Of a stretch of DNA of 64,000 bases, positions 1 through 42,800 are shown piece after piece. Below the pieces are notes generated by a model. It ran no database searches. It was not told the DNA's origin and saw only the letters and a list, made by a program, of their open reading frames with translations. Location: positions 1 to 64,000 of the forward strand of contig NZ_BBJP01000022.1 in the NCBI RefSeq assembly GCF_000739595.1, read 5' to 3'. This DNA comes from Halorubrum halophilum. GTDB lineage: Archaea > Halobacteriota > Halobacteria > Halobacteriales > Haloferacaceae. Position numbers and translations under genes: made by a program. Each line of letters begins with the position of its first letter. The stretch's first letter is position 1.

Positions 1-417
1 GTTCTGTAAGCACCTGCGTGAGTTTTGGTAGGTTCATCAGGTGCGTATCCGGACAGCGGATGAATCAGGTTCCTGATTCATCCGCTTCACTCAGGACTAC
101 GTATCAGCTGCTGGACTCCTGAGCCAGAGTGGACAACTAGCGACTGTCCTCAATGTCGTACGTGGTACAAGTATTGCACCCGCCTGCAATGATTTTGACA
201 TCGTTATCCAACGCATCACGAGCGGATATTAGCACACGATGGAATCGGGCTGCAATCTTGTGGTCGTCACTCTGGAGCCCACAAGGATCGTCTTTCATAT
301 GTGTGTCAACTGTTCTAATCGTTTCAACGTGTCTTGGTACGTTTCTCATTGGTTGTTCAGAATAATTCTCAATCGGATGTGGTTTCAACTCCTACAGGCC
401 TTCTGGGTCAAAATCAG
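1..417. other. Intergenic stretch with a strong inverted repeat
   Basis: No convincing gene is seen here; the short reading frames lack haloarchaeal codon bias and recognisable motifs. The notable structure is the perfect inverted repeat at 56-85. The gene at 418-957 reads leftwards into this space, so part of it is that gene's 3' region. Confidence 0.5.
56..85. repeat. Perfect 14-bp inverted repeat with 2-base spacer
   Basis: The arms GCGGATGAATCAGG (56-69) and CCTGATTCATCCGC (72-85) are exact reverse complements around TT. So long a perfect palindrome could be a cruciform or hairpin, an operator for a dimeric protein, or a recombination site. It lies about 330 bases beyond the stop of the gene at 418-957, which is far for a terminator of that gene. 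Confidence 0.7.
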
Positions 418-957
418 CTAGTCAGCGTCGTTTCGGATCCGTTTGAGTGGTGCTTTGCAGTCTCGGTCCCGCTCCCACTGCTCAGGACTTTTGAGCTTAT
501 CCAGTACATACGGTAACCCATCTTCAAGCTGTAGTGAGTGTGCTCCGCGGACATTCTCGTCCATATAGATCGTCGTTTGTGATGCTGAATCCCATGAGAC
601 GGGACCATCGAACGTAGCGAAGACGGTGAACGGTACCAGAAGTGTCTCATCTCCTCTATCTAATGCGATCTTGTGGTCTGCGCTGAACAGCTGTAAGTAG
701 TCCTCGACGCTATCTGCTTCGGCTGTATAGACCCTCACATCGATACAACTCGGCTGTTCGTACGTCCCAAGGTGACCAATAGTGATTGAGGAAACGTGAT
801 CGAATTCATCCATCGCTTGTTCGATTACCGTTTCTAATTCGACCTCAACCACGGTCTCGTCCAACAGCCTCTCTATCGTTTCTTCAACAGTCTGCTCGTC
901 TTCTCGTGCGCGCTTCCTGAGTCGCAGTTCAATCGGATTTGCTATAGTTCGCGCCAT
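418..957 (-). CDS. Hypothetical protein with possible RHH-like N-terminus
   Basis: A 179-residue protein I do not recognise. The first ~35 residues (MARTIANPIELRLRKRARED, then a run rich in Glu and hydrophobics) resemble the strand-helix-helix of small antitoxin-like DNA-binding proteins, but the body (residues 40-179) is an acidic alpha/beta domain with no motif I can name. The start at 957 is followed immediately upstream by AT-rich DNA, as expected for a leaderless or short-leader haloarchaeal gene. No toxin-like partner is adjacent: the next gene leftwards is absent from the window, and 350 bases of non-coding DNA separate it from the neighbour on the right. Function unknown. Confidence 0.6.
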   Translation of the reverse strand: MARTIANPIELRLRKRAREDEQTVEETIERLLDETVVEVELETVIEQAMDEFDHVSSITIGHLGTYEQPSCIDVRVYTAEADSVEDYLQLFSADHKIALDRGDETLLVPFTVFATFDGPVSWDSASQTTIYMDENVRGAHSLQLEDGLPYVLDKLKSPEQWERDRDCKAPLKRIRNDAD

Positions 958-1310
958 TGCAAATGGGAAAATTACCCACCTTAAAAAAAGGGTTAGCCAT
1001 ATAGCCAGTTAGCAGGGGCAAAAACTAGCAAATCGGGGCTCGTAACCCGGTCACAGCGCATTAATATTTAAAATAGGTATTCCTGTACATATAGAATACT
1101 AAATACGAGTCGGCGATTGAATCTGGATAGTTGAGCTTTTCACCGATTCAATCAGGCCGCTACTAATCAGTTTCAGGAGATTCTGGAATAGAAATTCTAT
1201 TAGTTGCTACTATCTGGTAGGAACAGTCGCACCCAGAATGTTTATAAATTGCTGTGGCTGGGTAGAGAACCTATCTGACTCGGCTGCTGACCGAGTAGTA
1301 GTTCACGCGG
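958..1310. other. AT-rich intergenic space with short inverted repeats
   Basis: No gene seen. The stretch contains 9-base inverted repeats GATTGAATC (about 1114) and GATTCAATC (about 1144), and the small hairpin AATAGAA-A-TTCTATT near 1187-1201. AT-rich runs around 980-1000 and 1060-1100 would suit the promoter of the leftward gene at 418-957. Confidence 0.4.
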
Positions 1311-2294
1311 TCACCCGCTCGTCGAGCGCGTGTGATAGCTGGATCCAGGTTCAAATTCAGTAAGTTCCTGAATCCGGGCTTCGAGTTCCCCGATTTCTTC
1401 TCGAAGTTCTGCGGCTTCCTCGCCATCTGTAGCCGCGAGTTGATCTTTGAGACCTTGTAGACGCGTCTCCTTGCGCTCGTCATCAACCTCTGCTTTCCGA
1501 ACGTACTCACGTTCTTCGATTTCGTACACGTCGGACTCGCTCAACTCCGTTACTTCCAGCGCATCATCGACTTTGCTGCGATCAACGCCCAGCACGCGGT
1601 CACGATCGATGCCAGCTGCTTCAAGCGTCTCCAGCACTTCTTCGTCGTCTTTCAGTGATCGATTCCGACGCGTCGTCCGCTGGACAGCACCGAACGGGCC
1701 AGTAACTGGGCGGTCGTGATGCAGCCGAGTCAACAGTATGTCTGCCACGTCTTTCCGAAGCGTATCCGCATTGCGCTGGACATCCGAGAGCAACGTGTAG
1801 AGGTTGACCAGCCCAGTCGTCTCTAACTCTTCAAGCACGTCCACGTCGTGACGTTCAAGCGCATCAACCAGCAATAGTGCGTCCGCATACACGTCTAAGT
1901 CAGGTTCTGTCCGGTCAACCGACTCTCTCGCCGCCTCTTTCTCAAGCAGTTGGCTCGTCGTTGGCCCCTCTGTTTCGACGATTATCTCTTGCTCTCCATC
2001 AATTTCGAACCGTGGATGGAGACTCAGTACCGCCGGATACGGATCGGCATCGGGTGGGAGCCGATCAAGCTCAAATCCATCTGGTTCGTCACTTATGCGA
2101 CGGTACAGCGTTTCGAACTGGTCGCGCTGAAGGGGTCGCTGGTCATCTTTCTCGTCGAACTCAACAATAACGCGCTGTTGCTGCACGTCAGTAATACGGA
2201 ATCGCTTGTGTGACAGCGGCGTAATGAGCGTCGCTCCCTCAGAAAGCTCATCCAGTTCTTCGAGAAGCGTGTTCCACGAAACGCTGAATGACAT
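1311..2294 (-). CDS. Coiled-coil protein of the XPB-Bax1 cluster, unknown function
   Basis: A protein of about 327 residues (341 if translation begins at 2336). I prefer the Met at 2294 because the residues before it look non-coding and the following MSFSVSWNTLLEEL begins an ordinary globular segment. The N-terminal ~60 residues are strand-rich (KRFRITDVQQQRVIVEF), the middle is helical, and the last ~65 residues form a strongly charged coiled coil. I recognise no catalytic motif. It is the last of four genes reading the same way (XPB, Bax1, zinc-ribbon protein, this one), with only 78 bases to its upstream neighbour, so it is probably co-transcribed and may be an accessory factor of that module. 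Confidence 0.6.
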   Translation of the reverse strand: MSFSVSWNTLLEELDELSEGATLITPLSHKRFRITDVQQQRVIVEFDEKDDQRPLQRDQFETLYRRISDEPDGFELDRLPPDADPYPAVLSLHPRFEIDGEQEIIVETEGPTTSQLLEKEAARESVDRTEPDLDVYADALLLVDALERHDVDVLEELETTGLVNLYTLLSDVQRNADTLRKDVADILLTRLHHDRPVTGPFGAVQRTTRRNRSLKDDEEVLETLEAAGIDRDRVLGVDRSKVDDALEVTELSESDVYEIEEREYVRKAEVDDERKETRLQGLKDQLAATDGEEAAELREEIGELEARIQELTEFEPGSSYHTRSTSG

Positions 2295-2372
2295 ATCAGA
2301 CCCAACGACCTGAAGTGGTAAAATCCTACAGGCCACAGCTATCCCCTACTGCACGAGTAATTGTTTGACAGA

Positions 2373-2522
2373 TTACTGCGGCTGAACTGGTTCTTTGCAC
2401 TTGGGACACTCAGCGTACACCCGTTCCTCATTATTAACGACGTACTCGATCAGAATTGCGTTACGAGGGACAGGTAGCTCACAGAAGGGGCACGCACCAA
2501 GACTGGATGGTGCTTGTGACAT
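2373..2522 (-). CDS. Small zinc-ribbon protein
   Basis: A 49-residue protein starting MSQAPSSLGACPFC; a start at 2558 would add 12 residues. Two CxxC knuckles (CPFC and CPKC), about 31 residues apart, make a classic zinc ribbon, with VVNNEERVYAECPKC forming the hairpin between them. Haloarchaea carry many such mini zinc-finger proteins, some acting in regulation or as adaptors. It lies between the Bax1 gene and the coiled-coil gene on the same strand, so a role with the helicase-nuclease pair is plausible but not shown. Confidence 0.6.
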   Translation of the reverse strand: MSQAPSSLGACPFCELPVPRNAILIEYVVNNEERVYAECPKCKEPVQPQ

Positions 2523-2634
2523 GGAAAGGGGGAACTTGGAGCGTGTGACAGGTTCCAAGTTCCATTCTATGATTCGTGTTCTGGGCTAAAATAGCTCACC
2601 CAACCAAAGTGAAAGTGGAACGGAGAGAAAAGAT

Positions 2635-3981
2635 TCAGTTAGTCCTGACCGGCGTACTTGCGTGTTCTTCGGCTAATTCCACCACATCATACACATGGAT
2701 TCCTGACTTGAACCAGAGTACTCTATCTTCGGTCCCAGAAAAGTCATCAGCAGAACACTCCAGGCGCTCCGAAACAGCAACCAAGAGATGGTCAAGATTG
2801 GCTTCCTGTATCTTCGCTAGCTTCTCATCCAAGTACTCCGGCGTCCAGAATCCCACAACTTCCAGGATAGCTCGCCTGCCATCGGGATGCTCAAGCGCGA
2901 AATCGGGGATCATCACTTCAGCACCCAAGTCTAGCACGTCATCTTCTCTCACTAACTCCCAGTCCGTGTTTGCTCGCGCCCATTTCTGCGCAAGCGTCTG
3001 CTCCAGATCACTATCGAAATCAGTCCGTGCGCTATAGTGCGAGGATAACCCTGCCGTGTGATCCAACTCAAACGGGACTGTCTCGTTCGTAGTGTCGTCG
3101 TGCAAGATCTCTGCAGTCATCTCCCACCGATCACATAACGGAAGTGCAGGTAGGAAGTTCGCCATCCGGATCCCATACTTCCGGGATTGGGTGAACAGAG
3201 ATGCTGGCCCGTCAAGTACCGCTTCGTACCCGTCTGCAGAATCCGTATCAGGGACGCGGTTCCCGCCCGTGTCGATCGGGTAGATGCGATGCATCAGCCC
3301 GAACAGCTTGACGTAGCTGAACACGGTACTGAAATGGTCCCATACCCGGATCCGCATCCGTGACGCATCGTACAGCACCGCCTGTGCCAGTGCAAGGTTA
3401 TATCGCGTCAACAGCCACTCAACGGTGATCGTATCCTCTGCGTAGACTTCCTCGCTATTCCCCGTCAACCGTGTCGTCGACACACTATCATCCGACGCCT
3501 CGTAACTATCCACGACTTGATCCCCGAAGCGAACGAGCCGCTTGTTATCTTCGAGATCCGCATACATCCCCCGATAACACTCTTCCAGGGAAATCCCGAG
3601 CTGGTCAGCTACCGTACTGTAGACTTCCAATTGTTGCGTATCCTCTCCAAGTGTCGGCTGCCGAACGATCGGATACGACTCGTTCGCTTTCTCAAACAGT
3701 CGCTGTCGAATCTCTTGTGGGTCGGCTGCTGCGACAGTCTCGAATTCACACTCGTCTTGGAGCAACTTCGCCAGCCCTTGAACGATCTTGTAGTCTGTAT
3801 CTGCGATCGTCAACTGGTCAATCGTCTCCTCTAACTCGCCTTTCGGCTCGCCCACGTGCTCCCTGAAAATCTGAATCAATTCGGCAGTCGTCTCACGATA
3901 GCGCTCGTCGTCGGGATCGATGAACAGCGGCTGAATAGTCCCATCGCGTGTGCGTGTGCGAGCAAGATCAGCTGTCAGCAC
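2635..3981 (-). CDS. bax1: Bax1-like nuclease (DUF790), partner of XPB
   Basis: This 448-residue protein matches the archaeal Bax1 (binds archaeal XPB, DUF790) family in length and ends. The N-terminus MLTADLARTRTRDG is the usual family start. The C-terminal half holds a PD-(D/E)XK-type core: IPDFALEHPDGRRAILEVVG followed by FWTPEYLDEKL. In characterised archaea Bax1 is a structure-specific nuclease that binds XPB and cuts bubble or fork DNA in a repair-like reaction. The gene overlaps the downstream end of the XPB gene by 14 bases, so the two are translationally coupled, which strongly supports the assignment. Its place in an island rather than the core genome is unusual. Confidence 0.85.
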   Translation of the reverse strand: MLTADLARTRTRDGTIQPLFIDPDDERYRETTAELIQIFREHVGEPKGELEETIDQLTIADTDYKIVQGLAKLLQDECEFETVAAADPQEIRQRLFEKANESYPIVRQPTLGEDTQQLEVYSTVADQLGISLEECYRGMYADLEDNKRLVRFGDQVVDSYEASDDSVSTTRLTGNSEEVYAEDTITVEWLLTRYNLALAQAVLYDASRMRIRVWDHFSTVFSYVKLFGLMHRIYPIDTGGNRVPDTDSADGYEAVLDGPASLFTQSRKYGIRMANFLPALPLCDRWEMTAEILHDDTTNETVPFELDHTAGLSSHYSARTDFDSDLEQTLAQKWARANTDWELVREDDVLDLGAEVMIPDFALEHPDGRRAILEVVGFWTPEYLDEKLAKIQEANLDHLLVAVSERLECSADDFSGTEDRVLWFKSGIHVYDVVELAEEHASTPVRTN

Positions 3982-5389
3982 TCCCAGTCACCCCCTGGCG
4001 GCGATGTGATGAGACGTACTGTTCTTTCGTGCCCTCGGTGATGATCTCGTAGAGACGGGCTGGTTGGCGGTCGTCGGTGGGCCGCAGGATTCGGCCAAGT
4101 CGCTGGGCATACTGCCGTTTCGACGCGCTACCTGAAAGGATAATCCCGACGTTCGCCGCCGGCACGTCAATCCCTTCGTCAAGTACCTGCGACGTGACAA
4201 GCATCGAGTATTCACCCGTTCGGAACCGCTTCAGAATCTCCGTTCGCTCTTCTGTTTCCGTTTGATGGGTAATACAGGGCACGATGAATTCCTGGGAAAT
4301 CTCGTACGCGAAGTTGTTGTTCGCGGTGAAGATTATCGTGCGGTCCTCATAGTGTCGCTTGAGTAGGTTATCGAGCGTATCCAGCTTCTTTTCGGCGGTC
4401 CGGGCGATCTCCTCGGCGCGTTGCTTGGCAATTAACGCCCGCCGTCCCTGCGGATCGTACGACGTGCGCTTCAAGAACTCCGCGTATCCGTCTTCTTTCC
4501 AAATGTCGAAGTTATGAGAATCGACGTAGTCGCGGTAGATCTGATATTCTTCGTCGTACTGTTTCCGTTCTTCGTCGGTGAGATCAACTTTGAGATGAAT
4601 CGTTTCGTACTCGCTGAGATACTCGCCAGCGAGTTCATCTACCTCTTCCTCATAGACGACGGGCCCGATCAGCTCTTCTAGCACCTCGTGTTGTCCATCG
4701 GATCGCTCGTACGTAGCGGTGAGTCCGAGGCGATACGGGGCGATGGTCATCTCGGGAATCTGTTGGTAGGTCGGCGCAGGCAAATGATGAACCTCATCGA
4801 CGACCAGCAGGCCGAATTGATCACCGTACTCGTTGATATACCGATACGCGGAATCGTACGTCGTGACGGTAATATCTGTCACGTTGTGGCTGCCGCCGCC
4901 GAGGACGCCGACCTCGTCAGGGAGTTGGTCGCCGAAAGCGTTCGTGAGCGTTGCGTGCCATTGGTTCATAAGATCAATCGTCGGCACGACAACAAGAGTG
5001 CTGACGCCAGCGTCAGCGATGGCTTGGACTGCAAGGAACGTTTTCCCGCTGCCGGTCGGAAGGATAACGCTCCCACGGTGATCGTGGTCAATCCATGCTG
5101 CGAGGGCGGCTTGTTGGTAGTCGCGGGGCTCGATTGCAACGGTAGGCGTTAGGTCCAGGTCAGTATAGACCCGCGCCGCATCTTCGAATGGTTCGATAGT
5201 CGCTGTCGATTCATGAAGCGTTGCTTGTCCCCCGCTGTCAGCCTGCGCCCATGATCGCAGGGCTCTGTAATGATGCGCTCGTGCTCGATATTTGTCGACG
5301 CGGTCGTCCCACTCTGCATAAGGGACTGACCCAGGTGCATCTTCCAAGAGCAACGTCCCGTCATCGAACACGATACGCATTCCGTACAT
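3968..5389 (-). CDS. xpb: XPB/Rad25-type superfamily 2 DNA helicase
   Basis: A 473-residue SF2 helicase. Visible motifs are Walker A PTGSGKT (residues 111-117), the DEVH Walker B box (198-201), LGLTATYERSDG as motif III region, and motif VI QRLGRILRP near residue 440. The N-terminal ~85 residues form the damage-recognition-like domain of archaeal XPB. It is a 3'-5' DNA translocase that unwinds or remodels DNA for its Bax1 partner, encoded directly downstream with a 14-base overlap. A Met three residues in (5380) is an alternative start. As haloarchaea normally carry a core XPB, this copy may be a second, mobile version, perhaps used in repair or defence of the element. Confidence 0.88.
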   Translation of the reverse strand: MYGMRIVFDDGTLLLEDAPGSVPYAEWDDRVDKYRARAHHYRALRSWAQADSGGQATLHESTATIEPFEDAARVYTDLDLTPTVAIEPRDYQQAALAAWIDHDHRGSVILPTGSGKTFLAVQAIADAGVSTLVVVPTIDLMNQWHATLTNAFGDQLPDEVGVLGGGSHNVTDITVTTYDSAYRYINEYGDQFGLLVVDEVHHLPAPTYQQIPEMTIAPYRLGLTATYERSDGQHEVLEELIGPVVYEEEVDELAGEYLSEYETIHLKVDLTDEERKQYDEEYQIYRDYVDSHNFDIWKEDGYAEFLKRTSYDPQGRRALIAKQRAEEIARTAEKKLDTLDNLLKRHYEDRTIIFTANNNFAYEISQEFIVPCITHQTETEERTEILKRFRTGEYSMLVTSQVLDEGIDVPAANVGIILSGSASKRQYAQRLGRILRPTDDRQPARLYEIITEGTKEQYVSSHRRQGVTGSADS

Positions 5390-7754: not shown

Positions 7755-10700
7755 TCAACGATCACCTGTAACAGCGCTACGATCTGCAAGTTTTCCCCAC
7801 ACCTGAATTCGATGTTCATAAGGCCAGAAAAGTCTCCGCAACCAACTCATCGTGTCTAACATTAACTCTTCAGCCGCTATCTGTCCTTCTGTCTGTTTTA
7901 CGATCCATATTAGCTGAGGGAATACAGTCTGATACGCAGCACTATCGATAGTTGAACTCTTTCTCCACGCTGTCAAGACTGTAGCTAATGCATCCTCTTC
8001 TGATAGATCCAACAGGGCCTTAGCAAGGGCTTCAAATCCTGGTCCGCCGATCCACCAGCTCATCAGATCACGTTCTGCAATGACTTTCATTAGAAGGTTC
8101 ACAGCATCTTCTGATCCTTCCCGATCTGCTAGAACCCGAGCTAACGGGGCTGCTGCTACTGGTTCATACCGATAACTCCTCGCCTGCAGCAGTTTCCCTG
8201 CATAGCGTAGTTCATCCGTCGTGAAATCTTGAAAATCTTCCTCTGAAAGTGGATTTTCTTCTGAACAGTCGGAGAGTAACCCATGCATTTCCTCATGATC
8301 CTCAGGAAGTTCTTGCTCCTCATCAGATTCTATTCCATCAGATGACTCTTCTTCTTCGACATGGATATTCTCCGGAATACTAACCTCATGAGTCTCTGCG
8401 AGTGTCTCAAGAGTCTCCGCCAAGTCCTCACTTACTCCTTTATCTACGTATTCTCCTTTGTTCATTAGCACAAGTGATTTGATAACTAAATCATCCCAAT
8501 CGTTATCTGCTGCAATTTCTGCAGTTCTCCCGAATATTTGCACCTTTTTATCAGTATATTCACTTCGAAGTACCTTTGCTCGCTCTGCGTCGATCATACC
8601 AGCTAGCTCGCTTTGGGAAATTCCGTGCGGGTTGTCTAAACGCCAATCGCGGAGTTTGTTTATCGTGGTTTGGTTAGATGCCCCTTCGAGAGCTGAATGG
8701 AAATCAATAACATCCTCGTCTAGCAGATCAGTCAAGAACATACCCTCATAGTGCCTAGTCTCTTTTCCGTCAGTCAATTCGTGAAGTAGTCCTGCCCAGT
8801 TGACTAACTGGATCGCAGTACCTATGTGACGATCCCAGTCGCCGTCCACAATCTCCTGAAATCCTTTCCAAACATCATTCAAGAAAACATCTTTCCGGTA
8901 CCCGTAACGGAAACAGCGTTCTATCGCGCTGTCGAAATAATAATCAGCGTATTCAATATATCCAGCCTCAGCCGCGTTAAATGCTAGGTCAATTAGTGCT
9001 CTTGTTGGTGGTTCTTCATCGGGTGGTCGTTTCAAAACCTTCTCAAACTGTTCGTCTAAAGCTGCGGGTAACATCTCATCCGGATAGGTTCCAACAAGTT
9101 GCCAAGAGACCGTGGGCAACAGATTCTCGGTCTCACCGTGGGTCTCCTTAGCAAGTTCGTGGACTCGTTGTACACGAGCTGTTGCTCCTTCTTCAACCAC
9201 GATCTCGAATTCCTTCACAGCAGCTTCTACAGATTTCCTATAACTCCAGTGCTCACTGGGAGACACGGATTCGTCAGCTAATGATCTATTATTGAAGCAC
9301 TCTTCAAGGAAATCGAGAGTCGCATCAACCCATTGCTCTGATTCATCGGGAGATACTCGCGTTGTTGCTGCTCCCACCAATGCAATAAACTGGTGTAACT
9401 TTGGATGGTCAGAAGATATTCCTTCTACTGAAGAAAGTACCTCATTCGGGGATTCATCACAGGTTGCGAGGATTGCTCCAATATAGTAAGCCTCACTAAA
9501 TCTCGATTCATTTTCCGTCGGACTTCGCTTCGGTTCTTCAAGCCGAAGATTATCGATGATCTCCATAATCTTATCTTCTGGGCCGCCACATAGAAGCAGT
9601 GTATGTAGCCCAGCAATCGACAGATCGGACAATGAAGGCGCATTAGCAAGAAGCTCTTCTCGCCACGATTCTGGGAGTTGCTGACCAATACCCTCACAAG
9701 CCTCAAAAGCCACTAAGGTATCTTCAAAAAGCCAATCGGGCGGTTCACTCTGATAATTAAGCAGGTCCGGATGTTGACGGACAGCTGCAAGCACTTCACG
9801 AGGGAAGTGCTCCCCTGTGTCGACGCGGCGGCTTTGTTCCGCCAGATCCCAAAACTCGTCTGGATGTAGTAGGATAGCTCCTAGTTCAAAATAGGCTTCT
9901 GGATCCCAGCTTGGTTTTTCAGCCTCTCGATAGTCCTCTTCCCACTCTTTCAGCCATTCGAGTTCGATCTCTTCTTCCCACTCTTGGGCAAATTGATGCA
10001 TTGCTGAAAGTGCCTCTTCTGTACCACCACCGTATTCCCGTATCTGGTCAACTAACCGTATAGCGGTATCACGTTCGCCACGTGCTGTATAGAAAGCCAG
10101 ACGGTCTGTATCGTCGGCATATATATTTAGCATATCACGTGTGACCCCACCTAAGATAGTGCAATCAAAAGCTGTCGTATAGTCACCATCCCGTAGGGAA
10201 GCATCAAATGCTAGTTCGATCGCTTCGAGGACCCGGTTTACGTAAACGCCATTTCGCCACCATTGCAGCACATTATCAAGGGAGACTAGATCTTTGAGAG
10301 CCTCACGCCCAGGACCGTTTTCTGCATGGTACGTAAGACTATCTAACCTATTGGGGATCTGTTGACATCGCTCAAGTAAATAGTCGAATATATGCCTATG
10401 TCCCCCCTCTATTTCATCCGATTCAATTTGATCTAATGTAAAGGACCGGAAACTATCATGAAACACCCTTAGTCGCCCATCGTCAACTTCATCAATAACA
10501 TGAGATAGTGGTATCTCACCAAGTGAAAGTTTTTGCTGAATCCAGGGAAGATCAATAAGATCAGCAAGAATATCAGCATGAAGACCTAGTGGATTGAGCG
10601 CGATCAGAGTCGCTGCATCCCGTTCGTGAGGGCGTAGTGGCTCCCATACCGATTCATAATACTGCTCAAGTTCCCCATCGACATCAGATGCATCGTTTAG

Positions 10701-12188
10701 AGCAGATTCGAATCCATCTTCTCTATTACCCTCGAAGGCCACCGCCTTGCGAAGAAGGTGAGAGAGGATAACCGGAAGACCGCCTGAAACGGCTCTCACT
10801 CGATCAACCAAAGCAGCAGTTGTCGTAACATCATTCTCGTTAAGATAATGGGTGATTTCACTTTCATTCCATTCGGGAACGGTTATTGTTTCACTTACTC
10901 GCAGATCAGTGTGTATCTCGTGAGAAAGCGGTCGACTCACTAGTAACAACGATAACGGAGAAGGAAAGTCAAGCATAGCAAGTTCTTCGAGTACTGTCCC
11001 CTCAATCCGCTCACCGTGAGTGGTATCCCCAAATGACCGCAAAGCATGATCAAGCCCGTCAATAATGATGAGCGGCTGTTGTTCTTCGCTATTTGCCCAA
11101 CTGGCCACGCTGTCAATGTATTCCTGAAGTGCTTCAGTTCCCGTCCAGACGGGAGTCACAGTTCCGTCAGTAAATGCCTCTGGAAACGTATTATGAAGCT
11201 GTGCAGCCAATTGGTGTCGAAACCAAGCAGGATCGTTCCTTTTTTTCTCTATGTGTTCTGCGTCATCAGGAATATACAGGAAAAACCGCAGTGTCCGCTC
11301 ATCCGTACCTTCTGACCAGTATCGATGTAGAAGTTCGATTCCAGTCGACTTCCCAGTTCCTGGTCCCCCTTCAATTAATAAACGATCAGTTGTCCCATCA
11401 ATCTGCTCTAAGTCTTGCACCCACTGGGGTTCGATGTATCCCTCTTGAAGAGGGAATTGTTGAGGTATGTCTGGAGTAGGAATATATCCTAGCCTTCGAA
11501 CAATATCTTCCCGCGTAAGCCGCGAAATAGAAGAATGATTACGACTCCATCTCGCAAGATCTACAGCGTCTTTGACGAGCGTCGTTGGATTACCAATCTC
11601 CGGATTCTCTAGCTCATCAAAAATCGGGGTGATCTTCTTTTCAATCAGCCTAACTAAATCCGTGTCTCGTATGGTTTCAGCGAGTTCTTCATCATCAGCG
11701 GTATCAATTCCTGGAAGACCAAGGACGAACTCGATCTCGGTTCCGGGGGACACTTCTCCAGCATCATTAGCTAATTCTTGGGCTGGGAATTCGAGATCAT
11801 CAAAGAACGATATTTCTCTCTCCTCATCAGCAAAGTTGATGTCCGGACCTGCCTCTTCACGATGCGACGTTAGAATAACAAACCGGGATCCTTCCTCTGC
11901 AGAAAGTCGGTCTTGCGCTGAGTCAACGAATTCGTCTATATGGAATTCTGAGGATGTGTTTTCCAAATCGCTCGAAGTTAGTCGTTGGCCTGGCCGGTTT
12001 TTTATCTGAAAACAAATTTGCGCACCGTCCTGTTCAAGGACTAAATCATCAAATTTATCTCCTGATTGTAAAGCATCTTCAATAGCTACCGCTTCCGCGT
12101 CTTCGAGTAATACTGAAAGGATTGCAATGCCGCCTATAGCGTCTTGAAATGTATATCCTCTGGCCGCCGGAGCCAGACCAGTTGACAT
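7755..12188 (-). CDS. Avs-like antiviral STAND NTPase with N-terminal PD-(D/E)XK nuclease
   Basis: About 1,477 residues from the preferred start MSTGLAPAARGYTFQDAIGG; the frame stays open to 12434, but that extension has no domain character. Residues ~10-110 look like a Cap4/DUF4297-type nuclease: a helix with GG, then D47/D48 and the QIK triad (61-63). Residues ~265-560 form a P-loop NTPase with Walker A GGPGTGKS (274-281) and Walker B PLIIIDGLD (372-380), typical of STAND proteins. The rest, ~900 residues, is helical and repeat-like, as in the TPR-type sensor arms of Avs proteins. In bacteria Avs proteins sense phage proteins with this arm, oligomerise and cut DNA. A defence role here is inference from architecture; it stands alone, as many Avs genes do. 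Confidence 0.75.
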   Translation of the reverse strand: MSTGLAPAARGYTFQDAIGGIAILSVLLEDAEAVAIEDALQSGDKFDDLVLEQDGAQICFQIKNRPGQRLTSSDLENTSSEFHIDEFVDSAQDRLSAEEGSRFVILTSHREEAGPDINFADEEREISFFDDLEFPAQELANDAGEVSPGTEIEFVLGLPGIDTADDEELAETIRDTDLVRLIEKKITPIFDELENPEIGNPTTLVKDAVDLARWSRNHSSISRLTREDIVRRLGYIPTPDIPQQFPLQEGYIEPQWVQDLEQIDGTTDRLLIEGGPGTGKSTGIELLHRYWSEGTDERTLRFFLYIPDDAEHIEKKRNDPAWFRHQLAAQLHNTFPEAFTDGTVTPVWTGTEALQEYIDSVASWANSEEQQPLIIIDGLDHALRSFGDTTHGERIEGTVLEELAMLDFPSPLSLLLVSRPLSHEIHTDLRVSETITVPEWNESEITHYLNENDVTTTAALVDRVRAVSGGLPVILSHLLRKAVAFEGNREDGFESALNDASDVDGELEQYYESVWEPLRPHERDAATLIALNPLGLHADILADLIDLPWIQQKLSLGEIPLSHVIDEVDDGRLRVFHDSFRSFTLDQIESDEIEGGHRHIFDYLLERCQQIPNRLDSLTYHAENGPGREALKDLVSLDNVLQWWRNGVYVNRVLEAIELAFDASLRDGDYTTAFDCTILGGVTRDMLNIYADDTDRLAFYTARGERDTAIRLVDQIREYGGGTEEALSAMHQFAQEWEEEIELEWLKEWEEDYREAEKPSWDPEAYFELGAILLHPDEFWDLAEQSRRVDTGEHFPREVLAAVRQHPDLLNYQSEPPDWLFEDTLVAFEACEGIGQQLPESWREELLANAPSLSDLSIAGLHTLLLCGGPEDKIMEIIDNLRLEEPKRSPTENESRFSEAYYIGAILATCDESPNEVLSSVEGISSDHPKLHQFIALVGAATTRVSPDESEQWVDATLDFLEECFNNRSLADESVSPSEHWSYRKSVEAAVKEFEIVVEEGATARVQRVHELAKETHGETENLLPTVSWQLVGTYPDEMLPAALDEQFEKVLKRPPDEEPPTRALIDLAFNAAEAGYIEYADYYFDSAIERCFRYGYRKDVFLNDVWKGFQEIVDGDWDRHIGTAIQLVNWAGLLHELTDGKETRHYEGMFLTDLLDEDVIDFHSALEGASNQTTINKLRDWRLDNPHGISQSELAGMIDAERAKVLRSEYTDKKVQIFGRTAEIAADNDWDDLVIKSLVLMNKGEYVDKGVSEDLAETLETLAETHEVSIPENIHVEEEESSDGIESDEEQELPEDHEEMHGLLSDCSEENPLSEEDFQDFTTDELRYAGKLLQARSYRYEPVAAAPLARVLADREGSEDAVNLLMKVIAERDLMSWWIGGPGFEALAKALLDLSEEDALATVLTAWRKSSTIDSAAYQTVFPQLIWIVKQTEGQIAAEELMLDTMSWLRRLFWPYEHRIQVWGKLADRSAVTGDR

Positions 12189-12572
12189 CTCTTTAACCCT
12201 ACAATCGATTGTTGATAAAACCCCAGTTTCCACAGGGTGAGTACTGATTTGACGATACGACATCGCCTTGATTATGAATCCTGAATTCCTACACTTTGTA
12301 GCGTAGCCGAAGTCCTGGATTCCCGGAAGGGTGTTCCCGGTTAAGATCATGTCTGAGTCAGTTCGATCAGTTACTGGGTCCACAAAATGTCCCCGATTAA
12401 CTAATGATGCGCCAGATACTCGGTGGTTCGTCACCTCAGGCTGGATAGCAGTCAGTAGTCATATCCCAACCTTCCTCGAAATGTGATTCGAGCGAACGGC
12501 GCGCCGGGTTCAGCAATCTCATACAAGTTCAAACGTCTCATCAACAATCCTCTCTACAAAAACGAATGGTAG

Positions 12573-13297: not shown

Positions 13298-13372
13298 TGG
13301 GCGCTGCAGGATTTGAACCCGCGACAGCTTGGTCCGAAGCCAAGCACTCTATCCAGACTGAGCTAAGCGCCC
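13298..13372 (-). tRNA. tRNA-Arg (anticodon TCG)
   Basis: Read on the minus strand, the 75-base segment folds into a full cloverleaf: acceptor stem GGGCGCT paired with AGCGCCC, D-arm TAGCTCAG, anticodon stem CTTGG/CCAAG around loop CTTCGGA (anticodon TCG), and T-arm with loop TTCAAAT. No CCA is encoded and no intron is seen. Its 3' end faces the AT-rich region 1, making it the likely attachment gene of that island. A TTAACA element about 30 bases upstream (near 13402) is a candidate box A. Confidence 0.95.
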
Positions 13373-22027: not shown

Positions 22028-22224
22028 CGGATGTCGATCGCTGACCGATGCAAAAATACAGCTACATGTCAGTGGAAGCCGGAGCGAGATGTTAACAGCG
22101 GACCGAGCACCTGGTCGCTTCACCGTATCGGCGTCGCTCCGAGATTCAGTGTACGGGCCGGGCGCGAATACGTTCTACGTAAGTCGCCGGGGTACAGCGG
22201 TTCCCTGGCGCTTACGCAGAAGCC

Positions 22225-22259
22225 TGTGCCGTCTGTGCTACTGCGCACAGACAGGCACA
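22225..22259. repeat. 14-bp hairpin inside the split tRNA remnant
   Basis: TGTGCC (22225-22230) pairs with GGCACA (22254-22259), and GTCTGTGC (22231-22238) pairs with GCACAGAC (22245-22252), leaving one bulged A and a six-base loop. It lies four bases before the 22-base attL repeat. It may be a recombinase or excisionase binding site, or the end of the inserted 95-base segment. Confidence 0.65.
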
Positions 22260-22262
22260 ATA

Positions 22263-22284
22263 AACACGCGACCGACGGATTAAG
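22263..22284. repeat. attL core, 22-base direct repeat
   Basis: Identical, in the same orientation, to 48137-48158 inside tRNA-Lys(CTT). It covers the T-loop to the anticodon loop of the tRNA. Together with the integrase gene that starts 65 bases further on, it defines the left end of the ~25.9 kb element. Confidence 0.88.
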
Positions 22285-22348
22285 CAAGATCTGCTCCTCC
22301 CGGACGAGGTACTCTGTCTGCCCCCACGGTTGGCATCGCACACGAGCC

Positions 22349-23347
22349 ATGCCAGAACTTGAACCTCTTGAACCAGAACGAGGCGTAGAGCTTTACCTCA
22401 AACACAGGGCAGACGATTGTGCTGACTCGACTCTCAACGCACACCGACTTCGGCTCAAACACCTACTCCGATGGTGTGATGAGCGTGATATCACCAATCT
22501 CAACGAGCTCACTGGACGACGTCTCCATGAGTACCGCCTCTGGAGAAAAGCAGAGGGTGACCTCAATCGCGTGTCTGTTCGGACACAGATGTCTACCCTC
22601 AGAGCCTTCCTCGATTTCTGCGCGCAGATCGACGCCGTTGAGATGGGACTCAAGGAAACCGTTGATGTTCCAGAGCTCGATGACGGCGAAAACGCACGAT
22701 CAGTACACATCGATAACGATCACGCAGAACAGATTCTGTCTAAGCTTGCTAAATATGAGTATGCGAGCCTTCGGCACGTTCTCATCCTGTTGCTCTGGAA
22801 AACGGGAGTGAGAACCGGAACTGTGCGCAGCATCAACGCAGACGATGTCGATAGTGACGACGGATACATCGAAGTCAGACATCGACCAGAATATGGAACA
22901 CCACTGAAGAACAAATCCTCTGGAGAGAGGTTCATCGCAATCTCTGAGGAGACAGGACGGATCCTCACTGACTGGATAGAGGAGCAACATCCAGGCACGG
23001 AAGATGAACACGGTCAGACACCACTGCTAGCCACTAACTATGGCCGAACCAGCCGAAGTAATATCCGGAAAAATTCGTACTGGGTCACAAGACCGCAGTT
23101 CATCGGAGAGGACTGTCAATGCGAGGTTGAGGATCATTCGTATGACGAAGTCCACCAGTGTGAAGACGCGGTAAGTCCCCACGCGCTTCGAAGAGGATCC
23201 ATCACCCACCATTTACGATCTAATGTGCCTCGTCCAGTCGTGTCCGAACGAGCAAACGTCAGCGGAGACGTACTTGAGACGCACTACGACCAGACCAGTT
23301 TGGAGGAGCAAATGAATCTGAGGAGGGATCACTTAGACAACATCTAA
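22349..23347 (+). CDS. int: Tyrosine recombinase / XerC-like integrase
   Basis: A 332-residue site-specific recombinase starting MPELEPLEPERGVELYLKHR. The N-terminal SAM-like DNA-binding domain covers residues 8-95. The catalytic domain shows R155 in KTGVRTGTVR, a Lys in GTPLKNKSSG, the HxxR box SPHALRRGSITHHL (H278, R281), and the nucleophile in LETHYDQTS (Y313, preceded by H312). The frame is open upstream, but the sequence before 22349 covers the attL region and is not coding. It lies 65 bases from the attL repeat and reads into the element, the usual layout for tRNA-integrated haloarchaeal elements. It should catalyse recombination between attL and the copy in tRNA-Lys. Confidence 0.92.
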   Translation: MPELEPLEPERGVELYLKHRADDCADSTLNAHRLRLKHLLRWCDERDITNLNELTGRRLHEYRLWRKAEGDLNRVSVRTQMSTLRAFLDFCAQIDAVEMGLKETVDVPELDDGENARSVHIDNDHAEQILSKLAKYEYASLRHVLILLLWKTGVRTGTVRSINADDVDSDDGYIEVRHRPEYGTPLKNKSSGERFIAISEETGRILTDWIEEQHPGTEDEHGQTPLLATNYGRTSRSNIRKNSYWVTRPQFIGEDCQCEVEDHSYDEVHQCEDAVSPHALRRGSITHHLRSNVPRPVVSERANVSGDVLETHYDQTSLEEQMNLRRDHLDNI

Positions 23348-24047: not shown

Positions 24048-24914
24048 TCAGGGTGAGTTATTAATAAGTTCATCACCACCTGATGAGATACCGACGCCCA
24101 TTTGGAACGTTTTTTGTGCAGTATTCAAGAGTAACTCTGAAATTTCTCCCTGGATCTGGCCAGCTCGTATAGGAACTTGCTCTGTATTGATACTAATTTC
24201 GTAGTTCCCATCGTCGTTTATTTCCTGATCATACTCAAGCCCTAATCTATCATAAACACCCATATCCTGTACGGCGTTACCCGGGTCGTTGTAGGTGTAC
24301 CTCTCATGCATCATCCCTTGGAATTGTTCCGATAATTCGAATAGGGCTGTGAGTCTTCCCACTTTTTCTTCCCACTGTTCATAGAGACTTTCGAACGATC
24401 CTGCACTCTGTGCGACAATACCCACTACCTCACCCGTTTCCTCGTTCACAACTGGACCACCACTATGGCTGGGATTGAACAGTCCATCAACCTCAAAAAA
24501 TGTACCATCGCCATTCGGATACGATTTTGAAGCGATTCGACCCCAACCGAAGCGTTGGCGGTCAAGAGAGTTCTCTCCTACTAATCGCGCGTATCCGGAC
24601 CATATTACCTTCGTTCCAATCGGTGGGACTGTAGATGACACTGGTAGTATTTGACATTCGTCAGGGTGTCTATTAGAAGTGAGAACGGCAATATCGGACC
24701 CAGGATCTTCAGGGGCATTTTGGTCTTCGTAGATAACATCAACTTCCAAGACGCTACCGGCGAAAGTCCGAATTGTGAGGTCCTCTGGCTTAGAGGCAGC
24801 AACGACATGGGCTGCTGTAATAAGGTGGTTTTCGGCCACCCAGAAAGCGGAAGCTTGTCCCGCAGTTCCATCCACTCGACAAGTTGCTTCTTGGATCTTT
24901 TTTTCAACTGCCAT
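24048..24914 (-). CDS. Cytoplasmic trypsin-like serine protease with C-terminal extension
   Basis: A 288-residue protein. Residues 1-165 form a chymotrypsin-fold protease with the complete triad: H36 in LITAAHVVAA, D74 in DPGSDIAVL, and S151 in NPSHSGGPVV. There is no signal peptide or membrane segment, so it should act inside the cell. The C-terminal ~120 residues are a separate domain of helix and strand that I do not recognise, ending in a Gly-rich ISSGGDEL tail. Trypsin-like domains are used as effectors in several bacterial defence systems, and this gene sits among nucleases of the element. That role is inferred, not shown. It is divergent from the GIY-YIG gene. Confidence 0.8.
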   Translation of the reverse strand: MAVEKKIQEATCRVDGTAGQASAFWVAENHLITAAHVVAASKPEDLTIRTFAGSVLEVDVIYEDQNAPEDPGSDIAVLTSNRHPDECQILPVSSTVPPIGTKVIWSGYARLVGENSLDRQRFGWGRIASKSYPNGDGTFFEVDGLFNPSHSGGPVVNEETGEVVGIVAQSAGSFESLYEQWEEKVGRLTALFELSEQFQGMMHERYTYNDPGNAVQDMGVYDRLGLEYDQEINDDGNYEISINTEQVPIRAGQIQGEISELLLNTAQKTFQMGVGISSGGDELINNSP

Positions 24915-28480: not shown

Positions 28481-30262
28481 CTACCATTTAAGTTTAATAT
28501 ATCCGGGTTCAGAAACATCAACTATTTTTCCCGTGTTTTCTTCCAAGTGATAATATTTGATTGCCTCTCCATCCCAGTCCTGATCAGTATTTGGTATCGT
28601 CTCGTTTTTACTGTCTCTAATGAAAACGGGGATGCAGTAATTGTATTTTTCATCCATTGAGAGTCCATTTTTAATCTCATCAAGCAAATCATGCCGTTTA
28701 TTTCTAGGTAAATTGTCAAATCGAGCTACCTCGTTAGAGAGGCGAATAGCAGACCTACGTACACCGCGTGAGAATGCAGTCAAATTATCTTCACTAACTC
28801 GAAAAATATCAAATTGATCGATAATATCTAGATCTATATTTTCCACTTCCGTGTGAGCAATCGGATATTGAATATCCTCTCGGAGGGATTCAATCTGCTT
28901 ATTAACATCAAAGAGAGACTCTAAGTAATCCTTAATAGATCTACGATAGGACTCGATGCTGAAATCTTCACCAGGTCTCACAAGCGTTATACTGCCATCC
29001 CTGGACTCCAAATCTCTCGAAATTGTATCTCCAAACGGGCATAAAAATACCATTTCTGTGGAATCTAAGAGGAAAGCATAGCTGAGCATTCGGGACCGGA
29101 CCTCAGATTGTTGACTGGGGTCATTGTGGCGAGAATAGTATTTACTGTCAAGAACTGCGACTGTGTCACCTGAATTTTTGAGGACATGGTCTGGCCGATA
29201 TGTAGCTACTGTGTCGTCGTTGAATACTTGCAGCGTAGGTTCTTCCTCAACCGTGATCTTTTCCTCAACATTACCTGGATCTAACTCATTCAGGTATTCG
29301 ACCTCTTTCTCTAATGTAATCTGGCTAAATGTCTCGAACACCTGATCCATATCCAAAATGAAGTCGACCGTGAGATCTTCTCGTCCTGATTCAAGTGATT
29401 GGCCAGTAGTTGATGAAATTATAGTTTTAGATGTTTTGACTGCATTAGAGTAATACCGACGCTGTCGTGGAAGATCAGATATATCTGTGGTTTTCACCCT
29501 ATGTAAGTCGACACAATCTGTGGAGACGCCGAGATCCTCTAGATGTCTTACCTCTTCCCGTAGCGAGCTGAAGATCTGGAAATACTGTTTATGATTATAC
29601 TCGCTGGATGAATCTTGAAATAATTGTAATAGTTGCTTACCTGCTAGATAAATCAGACTGTTAACTGGGGTAGAGTAGTCGATATTTTTCTTAACAAATC
29701 GGTGTTTTGGTACTCCGTGTGCCTTGTTCAGTAAGCTCTTTTCAACATCGATTCTTCCACGACCAGAGACTGCGTCATATTGTTCGTTCTTAAAGTGTCG
29801 GATAAATCCATTTCGGTGGATTGGCTGCAGACTATTCAGGTAGTTGATGGCAATCACGACAAATATATCCTCTATTTCAATATCTTCTGAAAGAAAGTCA
29901 TCAATTGGAATTCCGTGGTACCGTAGCGATCTGTTACGTCTCTGGATCGCTAGGAACATTTCAAGGATCTCCTCCCACCCGATCTTGGGATTGATCTGTA
30001 GTTTCGAAGTCGGTGTGAGGTTGACAACTCCTACAACATCTTCGACAGAGATTGTTAGCGATCCTTCATCTACAGTCGCTTTGACAACGCTTCTCTCCTC
30101 TTTGCTTTCCCTCGTTGTGCGGGTTTTTTCGAATTCGTTAGCAGCTACTTTGTCGAATGCTGCTCGTTGGAGTTGCTCTCCTATTTCAGGCGGACAATTG
30201 TTGATTGTTTTCTCATTCCGCTCCTGAATCTCGACTCGATTCGGGAGGGCACTACTGCTCAT
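28481..30262 (-). CDS. mcrC: McrC-like nuclease subunit of a McrBC system
   Basis: A 593-residue McrC homologue. The N-terminal part carries the family's strand-rich fold (LTISVEDVVGVVNLTPTSKL) and the central part the AIQRRNRSLRYHGIPIDDF stretch. The PD-(D/E)XK active site reads YRPDHVL (D358) and AVLDSKYY (D372, K374). The C-terminal ~170 residues extend beyond the usual family end and are of unknown role. McrC is the cleavage subunit that works with the McrB GTPase motor to cut modified invading DNA. It lies five bases after the McrB stop on the same strand, one operon. Confidence 0.88.
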   Translation of the reverse strand: MSSSALPNRVEIQERNEKTINNCPPEIGEQLQRAAFDKVAANEFEKTRTTRESKEERSVVKATVDEGSLTISVEDVVGVVNLTPTSKLQINPKIGWEEILEMFLAIQRRNRSLRYHGIPIDDFLSEDIEIEDIFVVIAINYLNSLQPIHRNGFIRHFKNEQYDAVSGRGRIDVEKSLLNKAHGVPKHRFVKKNIDYSTPVNSLIYLAGKQLLQLFQDSSSEYNHKQYFQIFSSLREEVRHLEDLGVSTDCVDLHRVKTTDISDLPRQRRYYSNAVKTSKTIISSTTGQSLESGREDLTVDFILDMDQVFETFSQITLEKEVEYLNELDPGNVEEKITVEEEPTLQVFNDDTVATYRPDHVLKNSGDTVAVLDSKYYSRHNDPSQQSEVRSRMLSYAFLLDSTEMVFLCPFGDTISRDLESRDGSITLVRPGEDFSIESYRRSIKDYLESLFDVNKQIESLREDIQYPIAHTEVENIDLDIIDQFDIFRVSEDNLTAFSRGVRRSAIRLSNEVARFDNLPRNKRHDLLDEIKNGLSMDEKYNYCIPVFIRDSKNETIPNTDQDWDGEAIKYYHLEENTGKIVDVSEPGYIKLKW

Positions 30263-30267
30263 GGAAA

Positions 30268-31491
30268 CTACGTCCCCATCCTCTGCTCCTCAGATTCGAG
30301 TTCGGATTCTACGAGTGCCATTGCCCTCGACAAGTCGTATGCAAATTTGTTGTCGAGGGAGTCATAATGATCTACGAGTTTGTTAATCTGTGAATAAGTA
30401 GCAGCATTTAGTAACCGAGGAACAATGTATGTTCTAAATGCCTCTCCAACGGCTATTTTAGGATCATTTTCATAGACTCCATTATTCCTAGTAGTCTCGC
30501 CAATAAACTTGGCAACATCTCTGTAATGCATCGGCCCAAACTGGATGATGCCTTCATTATCAGGTCCGATGCCGTTGAGCTGTGTGTAGTCTGTTTCGAA
30601 CAGAGTTTGCAGTTCTTCTGCGTCGACAGTGATTTCTTCAAGCTGATTCCTAGTCCAAGTTGAGAAGAGCTTCTGCCGATCTTGATGTTCGTATTCAGAG
30701 ACCTCGATCATGGCGAATCGACGAGTAATTGCATTATCTAGCTCGTTCACAGTTCGATCCGACATATTCATCGTACAGATAATGTTTACGTCGGGATCGA
30801 GCTCGATGGTTCGTCCAGTGTCAGTTGTGAAGATAGTTTGGTGGTCGTTTTCGATAGCGGTATAGAGTGGTCCAAAAATCTTAGATATATCTGCTCTGGT
30901 GAGCTCGTCGATGATAACAGTGTAGTCCTCTCCGAAGTCACGGGCCCGTAGAACAGCTTTTGAGACGCAACCAGGTTCCTTTCCGTAGCTGATTGTATCC
31001 TCATTATATTTTGGTTCCACTCGACCAATAATATCTTGTTTAGTCCAAGATGGAGATGCTGTTTCGAGAGTATATCCGATACTAGCATCCAGAGCCAACT
31101 GTTTAGCGAATGTCGTCTTTCCGGTTCCCGTTGGCCCGTAGAGAACAACCGGTTTGCCTGCTTGAAGAGCCCCTAACGCTGTCCGATGAACCGAATCGGG
31201 AACTAAGGTATCTAAGTTAGTAGTGTCGTCCCCTCGACTGGCAACTTTTTGTTTCAACTCCCTAGAAGCCATGCCGGATTCCAAAATCGCACGTCTAACC
31301 GGTCCTAAACTATTTTGTCCGTCATGCTCGACATCAATTTTATGATCTTCAACGAGAAATTGGAGTACTTCAGTTTGTTCAGCATTATTAATAGCGTCAA
31401 CAGCCATATCGGGATTTGATTTTAGTGGGCGATCTAACAGATCCTTAACGTTTTGTATCGAGTATGTGTCTTCCCGTTGACTGGTTGCCAT
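30268..31491 (-). CDS. mcrB: McrB-like AAA+ NTPase motor
   Basis: A 407-residue AAA+ protein. Walker A GPTGTGKT (119-126), Walker B VIIDELTR (192-199) and the McrB signature TMNMSDRTV (240-248, the MNxxDR motif that underlies GTP use) are all visible, followed by the arginine-finger region AITRRFAMIEV. The N-terminal ~100 residues are helical and short. They do not look like the DUF3578, EVE or YTH reader domains that recognise modified bases in known McrB proteins. The protein drives McrC, encoded directly downstream. The specificity of this pair is therefore unknown. Confidence 0.88.
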   Translation of the reverse strand: MATSQREDTYSIQNVKDLLDRPLKSNPDMAVDAINNAEQTEVLQFLVEDHKIDVEHDGQNSLGPVRRAILESGMASRELKQKVASRGDDTTNLDTLVPDSVHRTALGALQAGKPVVLYGPTGTGKTTFAKQLALDASIGYTLETASPSWTKQDIIGRVEPKYNEDTISYGKEPGCVSKAVLRARDFGEDYTVIIDELTRADISKIFGPLYTAIENDHQTIFTTDTGRTIELDPDVNIICTMNMSDRTVNELDNAITRRFAMIEVSEYEHQDRQKLFSTWTRNQLEEITVDAEELQTLFETDYTQLNGIGPDNEGIIQFGPMHYRDVAKFIGETTRNNGVYENDPKIAVGEAFRTYIVPRLLNAATYSQINKLVDHYDSLDNKFAYDLSRAMALVESELESEEQRMGT

Positions 31492-39856: not shown

Positions 39857-42800
39857 CTACCCCGCTGCCAGCTCGTCGAACTTCTCTAGTACAAGATCGA
39901 AGTACTCGTCTGTCATTACCCTCGGACTCCGCACCTTATGGAAGTCCTCAAGCATGAATTTCGTTTCTGTTCGATCAAACTCGTAGGCATGGAACATCGC
40001 AGCGTCTATCTCCGCTTGTAGGATCTCTCTTTGGGAATCACTCTCGACAGGCAGAATACCAAGTCGAGATGCAATATCATCGAATTCGTCCCCATAACAG
40101 TTGAGTTTGGCAGAGCGCTTCCACACATCCTCAAACCAGTCGTCTCCTTTCGTGAGACGTGGTGCCTGACACTCTTCGAACATATTCATGCTAAGGCTGG
40201 TGTCGAGTTTCGTGCGAACGATGTAATCGAATGGGACACTATTTAAGATGCCAAGCGCAGCGAACAACTCCTTATCAGTAAAGATGCGCTCGTAGACACC
40301 GTGTGCGGGTTCTTTTTTGAGATCATCCTCCGTAGGGTTGATTTCGTACGGCCGGATTGTCGGACACTTATGATGACAAACGACACCGCGAGGCAATACC
40401 GCAGCAACACTGCTCCGTTCGTTAGTGTTGTTTGAGATCTCTCTGATTCCGATTCGATGTGTAGTACAGTCGAGAAGTACGTCCGACTCTGAGAATTCGG
40501 TTCCTCTGTGCTTTTCTAGAAGATCTCTCACGAACCCGATCTGAGACCCACTCCCATCGAATGCGTTGAAAATGGCTGTTTTCAGGCGCTTCGCATTCTT
40601 TTCCCTTACTCGTCGTTTTGCGCTTTTGTCGGGGTTGACATCTTCTTCGACGCTCCAGAACGTTGGCGGTGCAATATCATCCCAAAACGTATTGTCGTAA
40701 GCGTACTGCCAGATGTTCCCGCCACCGTATACAGGATAGTCACCCTCGACTTCATTCTCTACAAATCGATCTGAGTCGCGGGTGCGATTGAGTTCCTCTT
40801 TATACAGATCAATGTACCAGTTGTCTTCTAACGGTTTATTGATTGGTGGGTTTTGGACGATTTTTCTGAGGAGCGGAACCTCTTTTTCGTTAGTTATCTG
40901 AGGGAAAATTGCCGTCTGTGGTGAGTAATCCCTCAGTACCTCCACTGGGACATTGAACGTGTGCTCTTCAACGTCTTGGAGTATTCTTGGATCTCTATTA
41001 AGGAATTTCACGCGAAGCTGCTGAGTGCTACCAGAGTTCTTGTAGGTTACCGCTCCAAATTTGTATCTATCGTCTATCTCCTCAAACATTCCCTTGTTCT
41101 CGAAGCCAACGATATATCCAATCTCTGTGTTTGAGAGAAGGTGGTTCCGTAAGTCCTTATTCGCAGTCCCAGTGAACAACTTTCCAGGTAGTAACTTGGA
41201 GACATACCCGTCTTCATCAGTAAGAGAAAACACCCTTTCAAGAAACAGCATCGAGAGATCTCCTTTTGCTTGTCCACCCACATCGGGACTTTGAAGAGAA
41301 TAAGACTTGCTTTGCTTGAAGTATGTACTCAGAATGTCCATACGACGTTGGTGCTCAATCCAACCTTTCGCTGTTTCTGGGTTATCTAGTAGATCAGATT
41401 CGATCCGATCCTTCTCATCAAGCGAACGAGTTCTGAAGAGCGCGTCAAACTTCGAGAAGTACTCCTCTCTGTTGGATGTAAGTACCTCCCATGGCGGATT
41501 TCCAACTACGACATCGAATCCACCGTGAGCATAGACTTCGGCGAACTCCAAAATCCAGTGGAATGTATCGAATGCATCGATATCCTCTTTCGTGATTTCC
41601 GTCGCGAGATCTCCTTCTATTGCCTCAAATACCTCCGCGCTGATTTTCTCACCATAATCGTTACGCAGGGTGTCTGAGTCAACGCTTACGTCCAAGCTAA
41701 GGAACTCATCGTAGATTAATGAATCTAGCTCAGGCCGATATTCCTCCAACAATTCGTTAGCCTTCTGGTAATGCTCATCAGCACGTTCCGACAATCCTTG
41801 CTCGCCAGCTCTTTCGTATTTGTTAATTTGCTCAATCACATCCTGATATCGCGATCTCACACTGTCTTCGTTGAATGCCTCAAGTGTATACCCCCCATCG
41901 TCAGTCGACTCAGGGAATGACGTGAACCCAATCAGACTGTTTCCTGTTCGGAGGTTAAATGCGATGTTAGGAAGTGCCAGTTCTGTCGGATTGAGGTTCT
42001 CAATATCATCGTTGGACAGCTCAGCAACAATTGACAGCCAGCAGCGGAGCTTTCCAATCTCGACTGCTGGCCCAACAATATCCACTCCGTAGATGTTATT
42101 CTGGACAGTCGCCTTTTTCAGCCGGAATCGCCTCGGGTGGGAATCAATCTGGGCGTATAATGCAGTGCGGATTGAGACAATTTCTTCTAGTACAGAGGTG
42201 AGATAGTGGCCACTTCCACAGGCCGGATCTACGACGTAGAATTCATCGACGACATCCTCAAGCAGGCCTCTAATAAGCGAATCTTTCGGTGCGAGATCAT
42301 TGATGAGTTCATAGACAGTATCGCTCTGGCGTGCTTCTACCTCACGCCATCCGCGTTCTTCGATTAGGTACTCTTGAAAACGCTCGTGGAGAGCTGGCTG
42401 AACAGTTTCCTCAGCAGAGAACCGTGTGATTTCACTCGGTGTATAGTAGGCACCCAGCTCTTTGTTCTGATCACCTGGATCCGTCGTGAGATAATTGATC
42501 GTTTTCTCGAATACAGAGCCGAGTACGGACGGATCAATATCTGTCGGCCCCCCATCAGCGGAGAACTGGTAACGTTCGAGTAGGTTGATGATCGACTTGA
42601 GGACGCTGTCTCGTACGTCGAACTGGCGCTCATCGACATCGGAGTCTGTGCTGAGTTCCGGCCGGAATAGGCCACCATTGAGGTACGGAATGTCGGAGTA
42701 CAAATCGATCACGTCCGTACGCTCTCCGTCTTCTCGATCCGGCTTGACGTTCATGACGTCGTAAAACAGCGGATCAAGGAACGTCTCGTACATTGACTGA

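Follow-up and report, generated by a model that had tools for sequence, protein, structure and literature searches.

An intact gene on the 3' side of a tRNA-Arg

We analysed a window of 64,000 nucleotides from Halorubrum halophilum, whose first position is also the beginning of the contig. An intact open reading frame runs on the minus strand from 12188 to 7755 and encodes an acidic protein of 1,477 amino acids (pI 4.3; Table 1); the plus strand across 7755-12188 is stop-rich and closed. A longer frame could begin at a GTG at 12434, but the alignment of homologues favours the ATG at 12188. The frame is not a chance one, because seven homologues are full-length and open, at 35-73% identity, and because dN/dS is about 0.10. 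A sequence-only reading of this DNA had placed a protein here without giving its strand; the protein is real.

The G+C content of the gene is 46.6% (38% at third positions) against about 65-70% in the adjoining chromosome, and the gene is therefore likely to be foreign in origin. It sits just downstream of the 3' end of the tRNA-Arg gene, as cargo of an island. Among congeners that have the equivalent tRNA-Arg locus, the DNA at this 3' end is mostly unrelated between genomes, which fits an integration hotspot on that side of the tRNA. The tRNA linkage that had been proposed for the island thus holds, both in the adjoining gene and in the variable content of the site. The assembly yielded no second copy of the 3' end of this tRNA-Arg.

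The visible part of the island contains no other clear antiviral gene. At 2635-5389 it holds an XPB-like helicase beside a DUF790/Bax1 nuclease gene, the helicase also matching PADLOC PbeA. A second island of low G+C (22031-48192) lies between an integrase gene (22031-23347) and a tRNA-Lys, and is likely a defence island.

Table 1. Coordinates of the gene, the parts of its product and nearby features in the window.
Feature	Positions	Strand	Residues, conservation and basis
Whole gene	7755..12188	-	1,477 aa; ATG at 12188, stop 7755-7757; translation and homologue alignment
Predicted PD-(D/E)XK (Cap4-like) nuclease and linker	11424..12188	-	Residues 1-255; model, sub-threshold profile matches
D47-D48, predicted metal-binding acidic residues	12045..12050	-	Invariant in the family alignment and in the distant L015 protein
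Q61-I62-K63, (D/E/Q)xK motif	12000..12008	-	Q61 and K63 invariant; third core strand of the model
NACHT/STAND NTPase	10836..11384	-	Residues 269-451; Pfam NACHT
Walker A	11346..11372	-	Residues 273-281, EGGPGTGKS; GxPGxGKS invariant
Walker B	11046..11072	-	Residues 373-381, LIIIDGLDH; D377-G-L-D-H381 invariant
Post-NTPase helical/winged-helix region	10449..10787	-	Residues 468-580; conserved SxGLPVIxSHL, FHxSF; low model confidence beyond 503
Helical solenoid, predicted sensor	7758..10268	-	Residues 641-1477; model and TPR/HEAT-type fold matches
Most conserved part of the predicted sensor	8721..8918	-	Residues 1091-1156, RxFRYG..KD ... NWAxLLHxxTDG..T.H.E
tRNA-Arg(TCG)	13298..13372	-	ARAGORN; island downstream of its 3' end
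Trypsin-like protease, second island	24048-24914
McrC-like gene, second island	28481-30262
McrB-like gene, second island	30268-31491
Eco57I/MmeI-like methylase-type protein, second island	39857-43801		1,314 aa
AAA_15 (OLD-like) protein, second island	45512-47428

Predicted nuclease, NTPase and helical repeats in one polypeptide

The motifs on which the sequence-only reading had based its domain assignments, D47/D48, Q61-I62-K63, GGPGTGKS (274-281) and IIIDGLD (374-380), are all present, and their residues are invariant in the aligned homologues, except I62, G275, T278 and I374-I376. That reading had proposed structure prediction as a check. Our model of residues 1-640 reached a mean pLDDT of 64.6 and a pTM of 0.46; it is better over residues 11-160, is unreliable over 503-640 and, like the model of the C-terminal part, was built from eight sequences. 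Over the N-domain it predicts a helix (12-27), three strands (33-36, 49-53 and 56-63), a helix (84-96) and a further strand (102-107), with pLDDT mostly 70-89. This succession of helix, three strands, helix and strand is the order of the PD-(D/E)XK core, and in the model D47/D48 immediately precede the second strand, while Q61-x-K63 lies within the third. Judging by this predicted topology, the N-domain very likely has a nuclease fold.

The sole Pfam match of the N-domain was Cap4_nuclease (PF14130; E 0.056), which at 14.1 bits lies below the cut-off of 26.2, and single homologues matched the PADLOC models of LmuA (E 8.5e-5), an endonuclease effector (0.0033) and HamA (0.0037). A search for PF14130 in 116 haloarchaeal genomes gave no match, the controls being silent too. 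A bridge is provided by L015, encoded in a more distant archaeal genome (G602) of the same phylum; this protein has the nuclease-STAND order of the family and retains its G, QD, DD and QxK columns. The alignment of L015 with the family runs through the NTPase (hhalign E 2.5e-20); the N-domains alone align weakly (E 0.0064, probability 5.9%). Because the N-domain of L015 by itself scores 27.0 bits, above the Pfam Cap4 cut-off of 26.2, kinship with Cap4 is still probable. The earlier label of a Cap4-type nuclease is thus kept as likely, although the protein in the window scores below the cut-off and the case is made by sub-threshold matches and the bridging protein. L015 itself (positions 1-3300, running off the end of its stretch) has, besides a Cap4 nuclease and a STAND NTPase, an additional C-terminal part, and represents a second archaeal family of such layout.

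A Cap4-like N-domain would also agree with an effector of CBASS, or with another nuclease activated by a second messenger and fused to an NTPase. We consider this extremely improbable. Neither SAVED nor any other named domain scores above cut-off in residues 500-1477, no CD-NTase neighbour was found, and there is no conserved cyclase, since no neighbour gene is conserved across the family.

The NTPase scores above the Pfam NACHT cut-off (E 1.4e-6; 28.7 against 26.7 bits), and six of the seven family members match this domain. Among named families, the NTPase and winged helix are closest to Avs1b, whose PADLOC model matches about residues 266-631 in five of seven aligned members (best E 5.2e-10) and whose NCBIfam model matches three members (best E 7.9e-8). 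These matches are confined to homologues: in PADLOC and NCBIfam the window protein itself matched no named Avs profile, the family matched no named Avs model besides Avs1b, and no match to a named Avs family was full-length. Because Avs1b comes with a protease and with a nuclease as partner, the match indicates kinship of the switch and not membership. Outside the family, the PADLOC Avs1b search hit mostly the first 110 positions of the model and yielded no further Avs proteins; the window's own match to these positions is a trypsin-like protease.

The remainder of the protein is modelled as almost all-helical, with about 45 helices in residues 600-1477 (mean pLDDT 71.9, pTM 0.44), and Foldseek matches it to TPR/HEAT-type solenoids with modest scores. 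The claim of some 900 repeat-like helical residues at the C-terminus is thereby supported with moderate confidence. A likeness to the solved Avs sensors did not emerge, no Avs entry being among the best 50 fold matches of the C-terminal model. Invariant positions are concentrated in residues 1051-1200, with 41 of them there and none in 1001-1050 or 1251-1300, from which we infer that residues 1051-1200 are a candidate contact region for the ligand or the core.

When residues 1-640 were compared by Foldseek with about 350,000 PDB chains, Avs3-terminase ranked first and second (E 3.7e-12 and 1.3e-10) and Avs4-portal sixth (E 7.9e-7), followed by other STAND and AAA proteins; the best non-Avs entry had an E of 3.1e-7. 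The top Avs3 match spans 572 columns and must, we infer, include the nuclease region, since the NTPase and winged helix together account for only about 350 residues. The low TM-score to Avs3 (0.32 over the query) is partly due to the poor modelling of residues 503-640. Searches of PDB sequences with the protein and the profiles gave nothing meaningful. The order of nuclease, STAND NTPase and solenoid that had been read from the sequence is thus borne out by prediction. The accompanying claim of Avs kinship stands for layout and fold, but not for membership in a named Avs family. With no full-length match to such a family, and a solenoid unlike the solved Avs sensors among its best 50 matches, the protein is built like Avs yet separate: its family is new, though of a kind already known, and is not any named Avs type.

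A small family carried by mobile DNA

The family is known from eight haloarchaea, including Halorutilus salinus, Halorussus halobius and Halobaculum limi. In a whole-genome search it was present in 7 of 391 genomes of the haloarchaeal class, the source genome counted, and a profile search of genome contigs gave two loci and added the eighth member. No relatives were found in viral contigs and phage collections. At L031 (G183:C2:464317-464406), an 86-codon frame contains a 30-residue match to the family N-terminus and is possibly a degraded remnant.

All parts of the protein are under purifying selection. In the comparison with the closest relative, dN/dS is 0.12 for the nuclease, 0.10 for the NTPase and 0.09 for the sensor part, ratios that are approximate because dS is near saturation. 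Selection thus maintains each of the three parts, and the sensor evolves no faster than the NTPase switch. An alternative is a STAND signalling or regulatory protein outside defence, with an N-domain that is inactive or no nuclease and a role, for example, in transcription control or in cell death induced by stress. The sub-threshold Cap4 match would be in line with such a role, but the residues of the catalytic motifs are invariant down to 35% identity, and the patchy presence of the family and its mobile context fit defence and not housekeeping. We therefore hold a role outside defence to be quite improbable.

Six of the seven relatives, one of them on a 429-kb plasmid, lie near genes for an integrase (L009, L012, L013, L017), Orc1/Cdc6 (L008, L010, L012) or ParA (L008). 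The comparison of neighbourhoods revealed no neighbour gene common to the family, in agreement with the earlier remark that the gene stands alone. The plasmid of Halobaculum limi carries a DUF262 gene some 10 kb away from the family member (L078:220-11885), and a gene for a large ATP-binding protein lies directly upstream of it (L078 9336-11885).

The frequent proximity of plasmid replication, partition or integrase genes, together with an island that shows no second clear antiviral gene, might suggest that the protein guards the mobile element that carries it. It would then be triggered by competing plasmids, or by their replication or partition proteins, and would remove them or kill the recipient. 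Yet mobile carriage is usual for antiviral genes too, so that the context does not separate a guard of this kind from a virus sensor, and in fold and NTPase the protein's closest relatives are sensors of virus proteins. We thus regard the guarding of an element as unlikely, and favour the sensing of viruses.

A putative virus sensor and its relation to known systems

Avs proteins connect bacterial immunity with the NLRs of animals and plants. Given the domain order, the motifs, the NTPase homology, the predicted folds, the purifying selection and the mobile carriage that we observed, the gene probably encodes a single-gene, Avs/NLR-like intracellular virus sensor, an infection alarm that would act by destroying DNA. 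By analogy with Avs1-5, for which ligand binding, NTPase switching, oligomerisation, DNA cleavage and abortive infection form a sequence of events (PMC12931631, PMC12799240), the C-terminal solenoid would bind a conserved protein produced by the virus in the course of infection. With nucleotide bound, the NACHT NTPase would then change state and oligomerise, gathering the N-terminal PD-(D/E)XK domains and licensing the cleavage of viral and host DNA, which would abort the infection. That the sensor is as constrained as the NTPase fits the reading of a conserved target.

As to that target, the sequence-only reading had stated that viral terminases and portals differ in archaea. This is so for portal proteins, which, like capsid proteins, diverge strongly in sequence between these viruses, but not for the terminase complex, which haloarchaeal tailed viruses have in common with phages: TerL is conserved in the tailed viruses of bacteria and archaea alike (PMC8651126). 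Terminase also activates an Avs1 system (PMC12799240). Our guess, by analogy with the closest relatives, is that TerL of haloarchaeal tailed viruses may be the first candidate trigger, a reasonable one in view of this conservation. As the terminase is common to both groups of viruses, TerL as a trigger shared by bacteria and archaea can be tested directly. We find it doubtful, though conceivable, that the family is instead a haloarchaeal receptor lineage whose solenoid, unrelated to known Avs sensors, reads a protein not known as a trigger of bacterial Avs, for instance one specific to haloviruses. No characterised Avs-type sensor from haloarchaea was found in the literature searched, and the family, compact, single-gene and present in named haloarchaea, makes the recognition of protein patterns testable in archaea.

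Among known systems, bNACHT and the NLR-related proteins of prokaryotes share with the family a NACHT NTPase, above the Pfam cut-off, within a multidomain protein, and NLR systems have been reported in archaea before (PMC11291487). Unlike them, the present family has no name in the literature searched, and its Halobaculum limi member is annotated as a hypothetical protein in the plasmid collection. The Cap4 nuclease and the Lamassu LmuA effectors resemble its N-domain through weak profile matches, but here the domain is fused to a STAND NTPase and comes without SAVED domain and without Lamassu partner. Avs1b (AVAST type 1; PDLC02159, NF041810) is closest for the NTPase and winged helix; its N-terminus is a trypsin-like protease and its partner an MBL-fold nuclease (PMC12799240), whereas the N-domain of the family is nuclease-like, a fused PD-(D/E)XK domain, and no partner nuclease gene lies nearby. 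From Avs3 (8dgc) and Avs4 (8dgf), AVAST types 3 and 4, the family differs in lacking a sequence-profile match and, among the best 50 fold matches, a likeness of the sensor. The features of this kind of protein are nevertheless there: a central STAND P-loop NTPase (Pfam NACHT, and the Avs1b profile in homologues), an N-terminal effector domain, a nuclease in Avs3 and Avs4, predicted here by topology and invariant motifs, and a large C-terminal helical-repeat sensor, modelled with moderate confidence. With Avs3 and Avs4, the best fold matches of residues 1-640, the family thus shares a predicted layout of nuclease, STAND NTPase and helical sensor in one polypeptide.
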